Source: Oligoflexia bacterium (GTDB lineage Bacteria; Bdellovibrionota; UBA1018; CAIMNF01). Taken from it: a stretch of 38,795 nucleotides of DNA. Each line of letters starts with the position of its first letter. Within the stretch, counting starts at the first letter, position 1. The stretch is taken from the NCBI GenBank assembly GCA_903845155.1, contig CAIMWN010000213.1, positions 1-38,795 of the forward strand. Direction: 5' to 3'. The position numbers were made by a program, and so were the translations under genes. Below, piece after piece: positions 21,063 through 30,227 of this stretch. The notes beneath the pieces were generated by a model. The model saw nothing but the letters and a program-made list of their open reading frames with translations, searched no databases and was not told where the DNA came from.

Positions 21063-21353
21063 ATGAAGATGATGATCATTTTGAAAACATCGAAAGGCCG
21101 AGAAGTTTTTGTGAATGACGGTTCCGGAAAGGAAATTGATACTTCACGGGAGGTGCTTCTTTTGCATCCCGTGGTTCATTATTACTACAAAGACGGAACT
21201 AAAGGGTCGGCTACTCAGAGTATGGATGGGGATTCATACGACGTATAGAGCTGGCAATAATATTTTGCGATCAGCAGCGAAAACGGAAAACTCGTAAAAT
21301 CTACTGCTCGCGTTAACACGAATTCAGTGGGTAAGTATTTGAAAATGCTATGA
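21063..21353 (+). pseudogene. Short decayed reading frame with two in-frame stops
   Basis: A 61-codon frame (KTSKGREVFVNDGSGKEIDTS...) ends at TAG (21246-21248). The same frame then meets a TAA at 21258-21260 and continues with protein-like sequence (YFAISSENGKLVKSTARVN) to a TGA at 21351. Taken together, 97 codons look like one small gene broken by two nonsense changes. No Shine-Dalgarno site. The first part alone could instead be a true 61-residue protein. No family recognised. Confidence 0.35.
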
Positions 21354-24007: not shown

Positions 24008-27000
24008 TCAAAATGGTTCCATAGAACGCGGGTGCCCACCCGGAGTGAGGTTTCGCCCTTCGACTTTTTTTGCTGGTTCCGAAATTTTATTTACTTGCAA
24101 GGATCGTCCTACGCCAAAAATCTGAACTTGTCCGCTTGCAACAATCAAACGCTGTGTGGTGATGATGTCTCGGTACTTTTCATACACTTCTTTTCTCAAA
24201 ATCAAATCCATCGTTCCAAACTCATCTTCGAGAGTAATAAAGCACGCACCCTTTGCAGTGGGTGGCCTTTGCATCACGATGGTCACGCCTGAGAGGGTGA
24301 TCCATTTTTTATAGCGTGCCGCTTTTAAGTCTCGGCTCGTGCATTTCGGAAGATTTGGGTTTTCAGCACGAATGGCCATCATGATATTTCCGCGCGTGGA
24401 GTAAGAGAAGGCTTCATGCTCAGAGCGCATGGTTTCAAAAAGTGTCATTTGCTCAAAGCTTGCCTGTGGTGCCCCCTCGGGGATGAGGGTGGTATTGGCG
24501 ATGGCGCTCCAGAGTGTAAGTCGCTGATCATGGCCAAAGCAGCGAAAGGCATCTCCCAGTGCTAGCGTTTCGAGCACCGCCCTGGGCAGGCCGGATCTCG
24601 TTAGAAAATCTTGCAAGTGTTGAAAGGGCTTTCGTTCACGCTCCTCGATGAGCTTCGTGACCGCCTCTTTTGAAAGCCCACGCACTTCCCCGAACCCCAT
24701 CCTGACCGCGCGCCATTTCGGTGAGCTCGCACAGGTTTCCATGGTTGCATCCCACATTGAATATCTCGGATCGAGCGGGAGAACCGTAACACCACTTCGT
24801 TTTGCACTTTGAATGAGGCTATCTACTGAATAAAAACCCATGGGTTGCGAATTGATTAAGCCGCACAGAAATTCGGCGGGGTAGTGGCATTTTAAATAGG
24901 CCGATTGGTAAGTGATGATTGCAAAAGAAGCCGCATGCGATTCAGGAAAGCCGTAGTGCGCGTATCCTTTGAGATAACTAAAAAGCTCTTTCGCGTAATT
25001 TTCGTGAACTCCGTTTTGAATGAGGCCATTGAAAAAACGTTCTGCAATTTTATCGACACTTTCTACTTCTCTGAAACTCGCAAGCGAACGCCTCAGTTGA
25101 TCGGCTTCACTTGGGGTAAAGCCCGCACATTCAATCGCAAGTTTCATTACTTGCTCCTGAAAAATAGGAACTCCGTAAGTCCGGCTTAAGATTTTTTTAA
25201 AAACCTCATCATGATAGCGATAGTGAACTCCTCTTCGTTCCGCCATTCGCCGCTGAATATAGGGATGCACCATTTCGCCCACACTCGGCCCCGGGCGCAC
25301 AATGGCCACCTGAACGACCAGATCATAAAAATTTCGAGGCATGGTTTTAGGCAGCATGGATCGTTGGGCCCGCGATTCAATTTGAAAGGTTCCCTCGGTA
25401 TCGGCCGCGCAAATCATGTCGTAGGTTTTTTTGTCTTCAGCGGGGATATTCCTTCGATCCATCCCTATGAGGTCGCAAATTTTATGAAGTGCAGTTAAAA
25501 AACCAAGCGCGAGTAAGTCCACCTTCAGTAAGCCCACCGTATCGAGATCATTCTTGTCCCACTGAATGATGGTCCGGTTTACCATGCGTGCGGGTTCAAT
25601 GGGTACGGTCTCGATGATAGGGTGCTCAGATAAAGTGAAGCCGCCCGAATGAATGGAAAGATGGCGCGGAAAATCGGTAAGTTCTGCGACGAGCGCTTCA
25701 ATGACGGGGCGTTTGTGCGCTTCCTCACCTGCGATGCTTTCAAAGTTTCGTTCAAGCTCCTGCGCGGAAATCGTTCCCACCGGAATTCCCACCGCTTTTG
25801 AGATTTCAAGAAACGCGCTTCTACTTTGATAAGTGCGAACTGCAGAAATCATTCCCGCTCGCTCGCGTCCGTAGCGCGCGTACACATATTGAATCACTTC
25901 TTCCCTGCGTTCGTGTTCAAAGTCCACATCGATGTCGGGCGGTTCTGCGCGATTCTCGCTGATGAAGCGCTCAAATAACAAGTTCATCCGGACCGGGTCA
26001 ATGGGGGTGATGCCCAAGACATAACAGCAAATGGAGTTCGCGGCCGAACCTCGGCCCTGGCAAATAATGTTTTGTGAGCGGGCGAAATGAACAATATCGT
26101 GAATGGTCAGAAAATAGGCGGCATAATTCATTTTCTTGATGAGCGCGATTTCGTGGCGGATTTGTTTTTCTACATCGAGCGGAATGAGGCCTCGGTAGAT
26201 GAGGTGCGCTCCCTCGTAAACGAGCTTCTCAAAATACTCCTGTTCAGTGAATCCAGTGGGAATGAGTTCACGCGGGTAAGTGTAAGAAAGTTGGCTGAGT
26301 TGAAAGCTGCAGCTCTCTGCAATCTCGAGCGTGGATTGAATTGCGGAAGGGAGATCACGAAAGAGTGCGCGCATTTGAAGCGGAGTTTTTAAATGGCGTT
26401 CATCATTACCAAAAAGTTTGAAGCCCGCGTCTTTTACGGTGGTTCCCTCTCGTATGGCGGTCAGACAATCTTGCAAGCGTCTCCGTGTGGGAAGTGCGTA
26501 GTGAACGTCATTGTGCGCGATGATGGGAAGAGCGAAAGCGTTTGCGTGCTCGAGCGCAAACCTGGTCCGCGTTTCATCCAGTCCATCCAAGTAACGACAC
26601 AAAGGCAGATAGAGCCGTTTGGGAAAGAGCTCCTTTAAAAGATCCAGGCGCGTTTTTTCTGTTAAATCAGGAAGTGCGATGAGTCCCTGTGATTCCGGGC
26701 GTTCAAGGTGAGTAATGAGTTCACTCAGCTGAAGCATCGCTTCGCCTTTTTCTTTTCCCTGATGGGTGGTGGTGATGAGCCTGCAAAGCACGCCGTAGGC
26801 CGCACGATCTCGGGCGAGGAGGGTGAGTGGGGGATGGTCTTTTAAAGTGAGTTCTGCGCCGGCGATGAGTTTTACATTCTGGCGATGTTTTTGTTCTTCA
26901 AAGGCGCGGGGAAGCGCGTATACGCCATTGACGTCTGTGATTCCCACGGCGTTAATGCCCAGTTCGGACGCGCGAGAAATGTATTCACGTGAATCAGACG

Positions 27001-27049
27001 CACCTCTGAGAAATGAAAAATTAGATTTGCACTTGAGCTCCGCGTACAT
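24008..27049 (-). CDS. dnaE2: Error-prone DNA polymerase III alpha subunit DnaE2 (ImuC)
   Basis: 1013 residues. N-terminal PHP domain (NFSFLRGASDSREYISRASELG, GITDVNGVYALPR). The polymerase active site is PPDIDVDF with catalytic Asp372 and Asp374, preceded by CQGRGSAANS. The C-terminal OB fold is present (WITLSGVTIVMQRP, residues near 930). DnaE2 copies damaged DNA during the SOS response together with ImuA and ImuB. Its ATG directly follows the stop of imuB with no gap, so the genes are translationally coupled. Size and domain order are normal for the family. Confidence 0.95.
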   Translation of the reverse strand: MYAELKCKSNFSFLRGASDSREYISRASELGINAVGITDVNGVYALPRAFEEQKHRQNVKLIAGAELTLKDHPPLTLLARDRAAYGVLCRLITTTHQGKEKGEAMLQLSELITHLERPESQGLIALPDLTEKTRLDLLKELFPKRLYLPLCRYLDGLDETRTRFALEHANAFALPIIAHNDVHYALPTRRRLQDCLTAIREGTTVKDAGFKLFGNDERHLKTPLQMRALFRDLPSAIQSTLEIAESCSFQLSQLSYTYPRELIPTGFTEQEYFEKLVYEGAHLIYRGLIPLDVEKQIRHEIALIKKMNYAAYFLTIHDIVHFARSQNIICQGRGSAANSICCYVLGITPIDPVRMNLLFERFISENRAEPPDIDVDFEHERREEVIQYVYARYGRERAGMISAVRTYQSRSAFLEISKAVGIPVGTISAQELERNFESIAGEEAHKRPVIEALVAELTDFPRHLSIHSGGFTLSEHPIIETVPIEPARMVNRTIIQWDKNDLDTVGLLKVDLLALGFLTALHKICDLIGMDRRNIPAEDKKTYDMICAADTEGTFQIESRAQRSMLPKTMPRNFYDLVVQVAIVRPGPSVGEMVHPYIQRRMAERRGVHYRYHDEVFKKILSRTYGVPIFQEQVMKLAIECAGFTPSEADQLRRSLASFREVESVDKIAERFFNGLIQNGVHENYAKELFSYLKGYAHYGFPESHAASFAIITYQSAYLKCHYPAEFLCGLINSQPMGFYSVDSLIQSAKRSGVTVLPLDPRYSMWDATMETCASSPKWRAVRMGFGEVRGLSKEAVTKLIEERERKPFQHLQDFLTRSGLPRAVLETLALGDAFRCFGHDQRLTLWSAIANTTLIPEGAPQASFEQMTLFETMRSEHEAFSYSTRGNIMMAIRAENPNLPKCTSRDLKAARYKKWITLSGVTIVMQRPPTAKGACFITLEDEFGTMDLILRKEVYEKYRDIITTQRLIVASGQVQIFGVGRSLQVNKISEPAKKVEGRNLTPGGHPRSMEPF

Positions 27050-28378
27050 TTATTCAAACCACCCATGCAAAAAGTATTGACGATGTTCGTCTTCAAAAAT
27101 CCAAAGAGGAGGACCTTCGCGAATCCCTACTTCATAGTACTTTCTAAATTGTGCCTGAAAATTGGGCGATTCCAGCCATTCACCGCTTAAGGATTCCACA
27201 CACGACCAAGACTCGATGGTGTAGGTTTTCTTTTTAAACTGAATTTTTTCACGGTCCACGGTGATTGCTTGAGGAGTGCTGAGTAAGCGGCTCGGTCTTT
27301 TGGCGAGAACCCGGGTGACGTCGGCGTGAGCTTCTTTGTCGTGCTCTCGCTTCTTCCAGCTCTTTTCGGGAAACCGTTCTTCGCGAATCACGGCCCTAAA
27401 TACATGCGCCTTTCCCACGCTCTCCGAGAGCTGGGCTGCGATCGATGCATAGGCTTCTTCAATTTCATCCCGCTTATGAAAAAGATGTTGCTGTCGTTGG
27501 TAGCCAGGTGTGGTTTCTTTCATTTCAATTCGAAGGCTACGCACAGCAGATTCAAGAGGCTTTGATGCAAGTTCGCGTTCGAGTCGTTCATGTAAAATGG
27601 GAAGGGTCCGGCGGGTGCTTCCTTGAGGCATCATAAAATCGAAATCAAAAGCGCGAAGCGGTTCCCTGACGGTGCTGTACGATTCGAGTTTCAGTTCGAT
27701 TCGCAGGCGTGCGCAGCGGAGCGCTCGTCCTCGAAGCCTACTATACAAGCGATCGAGCACCGTCTTGCAGTGAAAGAGCAGGGGTTCAAGCCAATGACAA
27801 TAATCATCATGCGCGAGCTCAAGGGTTTCTTCGATGACCTCACGGGGTGACCATTTCGGCCATGCCAGATCAAGGCGGTGCTCCACTTGCGAACGAACGT
27901 ATAAACTCCACGGACCAAAGCGCGAAGGAAGTTCGGAGGCGGGGATTTTTAAAAACTGATCTACCTGGTGAAGGGAGAGTTGTCTCAAAGTTTTAATCAT
28001 TTTATCTAACTCTGGGCGATTTTTAAGCGAGAGCAGAAAGGGATCGGCAAAGTCATGGAGGCTCGTGAGATCTAAGCTCGCCAGTGCTTCCATCGGGTTT
28101 GATACTTCATAGCGAGCTGAAATGAGTGCGGAGACGGCATCGTTCTCAATGGCAACGCGTGCATCTTGCACCCACTCTTTGCCAAATCTTCGCAGTAAAA
28201 CCTGAATCCGCATGAGGAAGGTAGTTTCACTGTAGAGAGATTTGCTTTTTCCAATTTCTAAAAATACCGCTTGTTCTGGTCTAATGGTGATTTCAGGAGT
28301 GAAGCGAAGACAGGCTTCGGCGAAAGCACTGAGGTCGCGCGGGGTTTTAAATACAATGCACGCGACCCGTACTTTCAT
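27050..28378 (-). CDS. imuB: ImuB, inactive Y-family polymerase-like scaffold
   Basis: 442 residues ending HGWFE, the usual C-terminal form of ImuB. As expected for the family, the N-terminal catalytic acidic residues of Y-family polymerases are missing: the first strand reads VRVACIVFKT with no Asp. It contains a thumb/finger-like helix-hairpin region (LSLHQVDQFLKIPASELPSRFG) and a little-finger domain. ImuB links DnaE2 to the sliding clamp and recruits ImuA. Its ATG overlaps the imuA stop by 4 bp, and its stop abuts dnaE2. Confidence 0.88.
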   Translation of the reverse strand: MKVRVACIVFKTPRDLSAFAEACLRFTPEITIRPEQAVFLEIGKSKSLYSETTFLMRIQVLLRRFGKEWVQDARVAIENDAVSALISARYEVSNPMEALASLDLTSLHDFADPFLLSLKNRPELDKMIKTLRQLSLHQVDQFLKIPASELPSRFGPWSLYVRSQVEHRLDLAWPKWSPREVIEETLELAHDDYCHWLEPLLFHCKTVLDRLYSRLRGRALRCARLRIELKLESYSTVREPLRAFDFDFMMPQGSTRRTLPILHERLERELASKPLESAVRSLRIEMKETTPGYQRQQHLFHKRDEIEEAYASIAAQLSESVGKAHVFRAVIREERFPEKSWKKREHDKEAHADVTRVLAKRPSRLLSTPQAITVDREKIQFKKKTYTIESWSCVESLSGEWLESPNFQAQFRKYYEVGIREGPPLWIFEDEHRQYFLHGWFE

Positions 28379-28914
28379 GGAGTGCTCACTTCATGACGGG
28401 TTTTAAATTTTAACACTCGGGTTTGGAGATCGTTCAGGCATTCAAGTTGTACCGAGATCTGCCATGCGTGCATGGGTTTTTGAGCAAGCAAAAATAATGT
28501 TGAATTCGCTTTCTCGCTTAAGAGCTGGAGGGTCTTTAGCGCGCGGACGTCATCAAATAAACTCGGGCTGACGACGATATCAAAAACTTGGCTCCGAATT
28601 GCTTTGCGTAAAGGTGAGAAAATAGTTTCACCCGCTTCCACAAATAAAAAATTTTCAAGATTGCATCCGCGTTGTTTCAGGGCGGTGGGGAAGAGATTGA
28701 ATTTTTCTTCAAGCCAACACACGCGCAGTTCCTGATGCTCGCGCAAAAAGGCAAGCAACCACTCCACGCGAGTGTGCCCGGTGAGTTCCACTAGTGCACC
28801 GCGTGGAATCCCTGCGGGGAGAAGCGAAGACGAGAGTATTTCTTGAGTGGAATGACTCAAGAGAGCTCCAATCTGTTCTCGAAGTTCGGCGAGCTGAATG
28901 CGTTTTTCTGTCAT
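28375..28914 (-). CDS. imuA: ImuA-like RecA-fold protein, short and without a normal Walker A
   Basis: 179 residues, shorter than typical ImuA (about 230-260). The GIPRGALVELTGHT segment near 35-48 is the ImuA/RecA start of the ATP site, but the expected Gly-Ser-Gly-Lys-type loop reads GHTRVEWLL, so ATP binding is doubtful. It continues with RecA-like strands (VCWLEEKF; FDIVVSPSLFDDVRALKTLQLLSEKA). Position first in an operon with imuB and dnaE2, with a 4-bp overlap, makes the assignment secure despite divergence. Palindromes just upstream are candidate SOS operators. Confidence 0.82.
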   Translation of the reverse strand: MTEKRIQLAELREQIGALLSHSTQEILSSSLLPAGIPRGALVELTGHTRVEWLLAFLREHQELRVCWLEEKFNLFPTALKQRGCNLENFLFVEAGETIFSPLRKAIRSQVFDIVVSPSLFDDVRALKTLQLLSEKANSTLFLLAQKPMHAWQISVQLECLNDLQTRVLKFKTRHEVSTP

Positions 28915-28915
28915 G

Positions 28916-28951
28916 ATCTAACCTCGAATGCGGTTAGATTAAGGTTAATCT
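28916..28951 (-). promoter_or_regulatory. Two overlapping palindromes before imuA (candidate SOS operator)
   Basis: ATCTAACC (28916-28923) and GGTTAGAT (28932-28939) are perfect 8-bp inverted copies around 8 bp. Sharing the second arm, AGATTAA-GG-TTAATCT (28936-28951) is another perfect inverted repeat. They begin 2 bp upstream of the imuA ATG. LexA is known to control imu operons in other bacteria. These sites do not match the TTACN3GTAA box I recall for Bdellovibrio, so binding by LexA is inference. Confidence 0.5.
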
Positions 28952-28970: not shown

Positions 28971-28990
28971 ATTTTTAAGGCCTTAAAAAT
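28971..28990. repeat. Perfect 20-bp palindrome upstream of imuA
   Basis: ATTTTTAAGGCCTTAAAAAT is its own reverse complement over all 20 bp. It lies between the operator-like repeats and the long palindrome and may be a protein-binding site or hairpin. Confidence 0.6.
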
Positions 28991-29070
28991 GAAATCCTCA
29001 ATAGTGTTCGGTTTTTGTTCGGTATCGCTGCGCGTTGATAGCGGGCTGTTTTCTAAGAAATTTAGTGCTT

Positions 29071-29305
29071 CTAACTGAAGCTGTTTTCAATTGCCCCCTT
29101 TTCGCTTCTGACCGCAATTGGTAATGGTTTGTAAACTCCCCTCTTTTTAAAGCATTTTATTGGGGATATGAATCCGGATGAGATCGTAAGACAGCCCAAG
29201 GACGGGCGACCCCAATAAAATGCTTTAAAAAGAGGGGAGTTTTCCGACTAATCATCGACGTGGTCAGCAGCAAAAGGGGCAGTTGCAAACTGTTCGTGCG
29301 TTTAG
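29071..29305. repeat. ~235-bp imperfect palindrome with 33-bp perfect inner arms
   Basis: The inner arms, 29133-29165 and 29210-29242, are exact inverted copies over 33 bp around a 44-bp loop. Outside them, a 19-bp diverged block on each side is followed by matching GACC/GGTC (29110 and 29262) and CCCCTTTT/AAAAGGGG (29095 and 29272); weaker pairing reaches about 29071 and 29305. The loop contains a small hairpin, GCCC-AAGGAC-GGGC. No reading frame fits. It lies in the 392-bp gap between imuA and the SRAP gene, ending at the SRAP stop codon. It may be a MITE or a structured RNA; no U-tract follows it, so a simple terminator is unlikely. Confidence 0.85.
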
Positions 29306-29306
29306 G

Positions 29307-30227
29307 CTACGCTGCCACTTGATGTTCGAAGTAAGTGGGCTGCTTATCATTGAAGACCACATTATAGGTTTTAAGGTCAATGGTGGCGCCTGTTTTTAAC
29401 CATTGCTCCAGATGATTTTCTTTCATAATGATGGGAGTGCGGTCGTGTCCGGCTGCAGCTACTTCAGGATTGGGATCATCTGTAATGAGTGCGAAGCTAT
29501 CGAGTGGAAAATCGCCTTCTTCGTTATGATCAAAAATTGCAGGAACCATCATTTCATGGAGGCCGCGCGGATCAAAACGCAAAACTTTTTTATCTACATG
29601 TTCAAAGAAACTTTTAATAGTCAGTACACCATGCTTTTTCCCAAAAACTGATTTCCACCAAAACACTTCGGGCAAGCTGTCGCGGCGGGCATTGTAACAC
29701 CCACTGAACTTGCGATCAAACTCAGGATCTTGGCCACTCGGTCTCAAAAGATAACGAAAAGGTCGAATGAGGCGTTCACCTTTGATTTCAACCAAGAGCG
29801 GGGCGTACTGCCCGGGATAGATGCGCGAGTCGCTTTCTAATAGAGAGTCACTTTTTAAGCGACTCATTTTATATTTTAGTTTTTCAATTTTATCGCTCGC
29901 AATGCGTTGGTCGTTCTGTGCTTTTTTTGTGATTTTCGCAGCGAGTGTTCGTTCAGCATCCTTCAATCTTTTAGTTTGGGTAAAAAGCTCCTTTTCGCTC
30001 TCGGAAATTTCTTGCTCATTCCAATCGCGAATGTATTTTTCAATCTTCTTTTCAATGGCGGTCCCGCCGTGGTGAAGAAAGGAATGCTCGAGTGCTTTTG
30101 GGATCTTGGCTCCGCTGCCATCGATGCGCTCTTTAAAGAGACGCGCAAACTCATCATGATCAATTCGAGCTTGATAGCGGATCCCTAATTTCTTGCAACT
30201 TTGTTCAACCAAGGCTGAGTAACACAT
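29307..30227 (-). CDS. SRAP (YedK/HMCES-type) abasic-site protein with coiled-coil insertion
   Basis: 306 residues beginning Met-Cys, as the family requires: Cys2 becomes N-terminal after Met removal and crosslinks to abasic sites. Asn179 (CYNARRDS), Glu209 (FFEH) and His261 (GHDRTP) complete the active site. E. coli YedK has about 222 residues; the extra length is a Lys/Glu-rich, probably coiled-coil insert at about 55-130. The protein shields abasic sites in single-stranded DNA, in keeping with the nearby imu operon. A -10-like TACACT lies 6 nt before the ATG and there is no Shine-Dalgarno site, suggesting a leaderless mRNA. Confidence 0.9.
   Translation of the reverse strand: MCYSALVEQSCKKLGIRYQARIDHDEFARLFKERIDGSGAKIPKALEHSFLHHGGTAIEKKIEKYIRDWNEQEISESEKELFTQTKRLKDAERTLAAKITKKAQNDQRIASDKIEKLKYKMSRLKSDSLLESDSRIYPGQYAPLLVEIKGERLIRPFRYLLRPSGQDPEFDRKFSGCYNARRDSLPEVFWWKSVFGKKHGVLTIKSFFEHVDKKVLRFDPRGLHEMMVPAIFDHNEEGDFPLDSFALITDDPNPEVAAAGHDRTPIIMKENHLEQWLKTGATIDLKTYNVVFNDKQPTYFEHQVAA

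Follow-up and report, generated by a model that had tools for sequence, protein, structure and literature searches.

A dispersed non-coding hairpin element with a conserved loop and concertedly changing arms in an Oligoflexia bacterium, and hairpins of similar design in Bdellovibrionota

Dispersed palindromic repeats of bacteria, namely ERIC, REP/REPIN, BOX and other MITEs, have been reviewed in PMC10969869, and the REP families are described in PMC3733652. They are the bacterial kinds nearest to the element presented here, which is likewise dispersed, intergenic, non-coding and hairpin-forming. However, these repeats are generally recognised by a conserved stem or end, whereas in our element the loop is kept and the stem varies yet remains paired. 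REP/REPIN sequences are palindromes of 20–40 bp carrying a GTAG or CGTC tag (PMC3733652), and the element was not assigned to them as its size and core differ. The double-hairpin and repetitive hairpin-forming elements of mitochondria are also short, dispersed and thought to be mobile, with no enzyme known, but they show the reverse pattern: their stems are conserved and their loops vary (PMC2800124, PMC4478555), whereas our element preserves its core and has stems whose two sides change in concert. Template switching between inverted repeats, also known as quasipalindrome correction, has arm homogenization and spacer inversion as its known products (PMC8604942). Both have a counterpart in our data, the arms being homogenized within copies and a spacer inversion being seen in relatives only (genome G244 against G223). 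That work concerns short repeats inside genes; in contrast, we find many copies with a conserved central core and arms of up to 83 bp.

The palindrome is situated between genes, where no gene was detected, in the window, by which we mean the whole stretch of 38,795 nucleotides that was analysed. Its two inner arms (29133–29165 and 29210–29242, plus strand) are complementary at 33 of 33 positions and 44 nt apart, exactly where the first-pass annotation had placed them, and the left one covaries between copies. The 44-nt loop between them (29166–29209, plus strand; ATATGAATCCGGATGAGATCGTAAGACAGCCCAAGGACGGGCGA) folds into the two small hairpins which that annotation had described, with helices at 29167–29171/29184–29188 and 29194–29197/29204–29207. 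Further, diverged arms had been claimed on both sides, and these could be confirmed: a blastn comparison of the two strands of the element finds 71% identity across 29083–29290, the similarity of the outer left arm to the right arm of the same copy exceeds that of 999 in 1000 shuffled sequences, and the outer blocks pair weakly in the fold out to about the same limits. The outer left arm (29083–29132, plus strand), which also has related ends in other copies, contains near 29095–29112 an end motif common to other copies, CCCCTTTTCGCTTCTGA. The outer right arm (29243–29290, plus strand), delimited by the fold, the self-match and the shuffle test, ends 16 bp short of the stop codon, at 29307, of the neighbouring SRAP gene. 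No U-tract follows the stem on its 3′ side, as had been noted before. The predicted RNA fold of 29040–29340 has an energy of −131.5 kcal/mol compared to −83.4 (sd 5.5) for shuffled sequences (z −8.8; none of 100 shuffles equal to it). Among inverted repeats with a score of at least 18 and a spacer of 15–130 nt, the palindrome is the sole one in the 38.8-kb window, and comparable inverted repeats are rare elsewhere, two Bdellovibrio-like genomes having 2 in every 200 kb.

The neighbouring genes are on the minus strand. The gene for the SOS response associated peptidase (SRAP; 29307–30227) is identified by Pfam PF02586 (E 5e-16). On the other side lies an imuA-like gene (28375–28914), so named by its position only since it has no Pfam match, in an operon with a dnaE2-like gene for DNA polymerase III alpha (24008–27049; PF07733/PF17657/PF02811). 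A candidate operator occupies 28916–28951, directly upstream of the start of the imuA-like gene at 28914; it consists of two short inverted repeats that overlap, ATCTAACC/GGTTAGAT and AGATTAA-GG-TTAATCT. Further towards the hairpin, a perfect 20-bp palindrome, ATTTTTAAGGCCTTAAAAAT, is present at 28971–28990. At 21270–21286 on the minus strand, CCGTTTTCGCTGCTGAT differs by one mismatch from the outer end motif of the element; no hairpin surrounds it and it may be either a chance match or a remnant.

A combination of blastn and covariance models located at least nine dispersed copies in the genome of the window: one each on contigs C213 (the window), C266, C11, C207, C30 and C215, two on C244 and a degenerate one on C229. 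They are intergenic, mostly at gene ends, and adjoin ssb, cysE and other genes. The first-pass annotation had tied the palindrome to DNA-damage genes; this tie is not supported by the other copies, and since the genes beside the copies have no function in common, the SRAP/dnaE2 setting looks incidental. Its view that one ancestral palindrome had drifted, rather than arisen by chance, is supported. The window is contig 213 of the 337 in the assembly. Contigs C207, C244 and C18 end in or close to hairpin arms, the start of C18 resembling the missing half of one of the C244 copies; assembly seems to fail at long palindromes, and with two copies at contig ends the copy number is a lower bound. Across eight copies, conservation is highest in the loop. 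An extra loop stretch of about 40–45 nt is seen in some copies (L037 5501–5660 on C244, L137 and L139), both in this genome and in the relative G292 described below.

No copy was found by blastn in phages or plasmids. The loop pattern matched 33 times among GTDB and viral contigs; none of these matches fitted the model, and they were taken as chance. Rfam gave nothing at the gathering score, and the relaxed matches were mostly to microRNA hairpins through their stem shape. An origin of the loop from tRNA or tmRNA, hinted at by GGTTCAAATCC on the reverse strand, was considered and rejected as no tRNA was found. The absence of copies from 11 congeners carries little weight because these are very distant, their SSB proteins being only about 50% identical. 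A description of such an element was not met in the literature, where coverage of subscription papers was poor.

The arms of the copies have changed together. In the alignment of eight copies, 22 of the 42 pairs have changed on both sides, a number reached by none of 500 shuffles and compared to 3–8 in slid controls, and 92% of the cells are paired. Within the inner 30 nt of well-kept copies, concerted differences outnumber one-arm differences by 8:1, 10:0 and 13:1. The outer arms match their own partners better (mean 25.9) than they match arms of other copies (15.2), although C266, C215 and C229 have no such excess. The inner arms are alike between copies (mean 0.70), and therefore the copies in this genome have spread with their arms. 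Mismatches in the inner 30 nt comprise 7 of the G-U and 5 of the A-C type; the count was restricted to this part and a whole-arm count was dropped because far outer alignments are unreliable. In the copy on C11, the right arm takes in the 3′ end of cysE with its last codons (ORF L017:3379–3975) and the left arm holds a decayed mirror of the same gene end, as good a match being found in 0 of 1000 shuffles. Weaker outer similarity in C30 extends to the region of the neighbour's stop codon, which hints at mirroring of a neighbour gene end there too.

When 369 genomes of the phylum were searched, one match lay outside the genome of the window, in G292. This genome contains 13 hairpins that share a conserved core; their stems are near-perfect and mostly unrelated between copies, and in them all four Watson-Crick pair types occur and G-U is nearly absent. 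With a model built from these hairpins (R3), 148 genomes were searched and 28 proved to have hairpins, up to 23 in one genome. Most of these hairpins have the core NCTCARACAG-[small hairpin]-GAACTCG and arms of 18–83 bp which are about 99% self-matching. In 85 collected hairpins, the two arms of a copy agree outside the inner 14 nt at 2331 positions and disagree at 28. Mismatches in the outer arms are of the G-U type in 10 cases and of the A-C type in 14. Since the A-C type exceeds the G-U type in the inner 6–14 bp, some positions near the core may be constrained. Between copies, by contrast, mean arm identity is 0.26–0.52 depending on the genome, compared to core scores of 0.91–0.95 (in four families with short uniform cores). 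Many arms end at the stop codon of the gene to their left: for 23 of 46 such genes, the distance between gene end and arm is at most about 20 bp. The 3′ end of a tRNA-Leu gene and the last codons of tatC are each mirrored in the opposite arm of hairpins in relatives.

Hairpins of the CTCARACAG...GAACTCG type, for which no existing name was found and whose core pattern is missing from viral contigs, resemble the window family in having a conserved asymmetric core with a small GC hairpin, near-perfect copy-specific arms and positions at gene ends. Their arms also mirror the end of a neighbour gene, as in C11 with cysE and more weakly in C30. However, their core sequence is not that of the window family: the pattern is absent from the copies in the window genome, and the only common motif noticed was the short AGACAGCC adjoining the small hairpin. 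The two families have the same design; as the window copies are not detected with R3, common ancestry of the cores is unproven.

A second family of hairpins was seen in the relatives (G223:C1:976158, L273; G244:C1:916355, L306; G231:C1:594540, L250; G229:C1:987036). Its conserved core, GGCGCCACGAYGGCGCG...GAGCCCGGAYGGCGT, is flanked by long arms whose sequence varies from locus to locus, and it has no Rfam match at the gathering score. A short palindrome, AAAAGGTACCTGCTTACTTTT, is also repeated in these genomes (G223:C1:648980; G229:C1:466267 and 675004; G244:C1:756329, in a varied form).

Comparison of related genomes allowed individual loci to be followed. In G223 (3,782,950 bp), the hairpin at C1:791844–791972 adjoins rpoN, a gene named from its own sequence. 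The corresponding site in G229 keeps the left arm, as a small stem-loop after rpoN, and has neither the core nor the right arm. G244 has no hairpin at this site, though its downstream region differs. Because the empty site keeps the left arm without the core and right arm, the right arm probably arose as a mirror image copied from host DNA; alternatively, G229 could have lost the core and right arm by deletion. A second locus has a hairpin in both G223 and G229, with flanks mostly 87–98% identical, largely above 90%, and element windows only 70–74% identical; here both arms have changed and are still paired. At the same locus in G223 and G244, the core in G244 is inverted relative to that in G223, which is expected of template switching. 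Orthologous hairpins in G240 and G241 differ at three places only and keep old mismatches, so arm copying is not constant.

We consider it probable that the palindrome is a copy of a dispersed non-coding hairpin element with a conserved, probably mobile core, whose arms are made and kept equal by template-switch copying. The conserved structured loop would be the functional part and probably the one that moves. Replication across the hairpin would switch template by fold-back synthesis, and one arm would thereby be copied onto the other. Such copying may extend outward into the host sequence next to the hairpin and mirror it as far as the ends of neighbour genes. The agent would be template switching during replication, and the window family and the phylum-wide family would work alike. 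A broader proposal, which we put forward tentatively and at somewhat below even chances, is that these hairpins form a new class of bacterial mobile element, common across Bdellovibrionota, in which nothing but a short structured core moves, each copy builds near-perfect arms mirroring the ends of host transcription units, and the palindrome shared by element and host is repeatedly rewritten.

One alternative is a structured RNA, either a 3′-UTR or a small RNA, with a conserved apical motif and a stem under selection for pairing. Such an RNA would explain the strong compensatory change, the conserved and structured apical region and, in relatives, the position just after stop codons in a preferred orientation. 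However, stem pairs are almost all Watson-Crick, and RNA pairing alone would not predict the nearly even numbers of G-U and A-C mismatches in the outer arms of the phylum-wide set; tolerance of G-U was not seen in the window family either. The arms are unrelated between copies despite their alike cores, ends of tRNA and protein genes are mirrored, a relative has an empty site and Rfam gives no match. A structured RNA was among the identities suggested by the first-pass annotation; the compensatory changes that such an RNA predicts are indeed present, but their pattern better fits copying of one arm onto the other at the DNA level. We therefore regard selection for RNA pairing as rather unlikely to account for the stem, while a role of the core alone as RNA is possible alongside template-switch copying of the arms.

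The same annotation had proposed a MITE, and its core observation, a dispersed and MITE-like intergenic repeat, stands with the nine copies in the window genome, several of which have a common outer end near CCCTTTTCGCTGCTGA. In its ordinary form this would be an insertion-sequence derivative that is non-autonomous, has long inverted repeats at its termini and is moved by a transposase encoded elsewhere. Many copies with target duplications had been named as support for it, and the copies are there, but no consistent target duplication could be read by eye in their flanks, and none of the inspected places with the same end in the genome resembles a larger element. The end motif is partially shared, yet the outer arms are more copy-specific than shared, and in relatives the arms are wholly copy-specific. 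Fixed termini and a transposase elsewhere are unsupported, and an ordinary MITE appears quite improbable to us. A chance or local inverted duplication with no significance would sit easily in an intergenic region in which no gene is detected, but nine copies with a conserved loop refute it, and the energy of the fold and the phylum-wide class of the same design also stand against it; we give it almost no credence.

Should the arms indeed be kept equal by copying, covariation by itself would be no proof of a functional RNA. The core of this element is kept and its stems are rewritten in step, apparently with host DNA, which is unlike the fixed-end MITEs of bacteria. If copying by template switch is the true explanation, the hairpins would amount to a record of bacterial template switching that nature has produced repeatedly, and would offer a test system for it in a common laboratory predator of the Bdellovibrio type. 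They would also represent a new route by which a non-coding element may spread without carrying its own ends.
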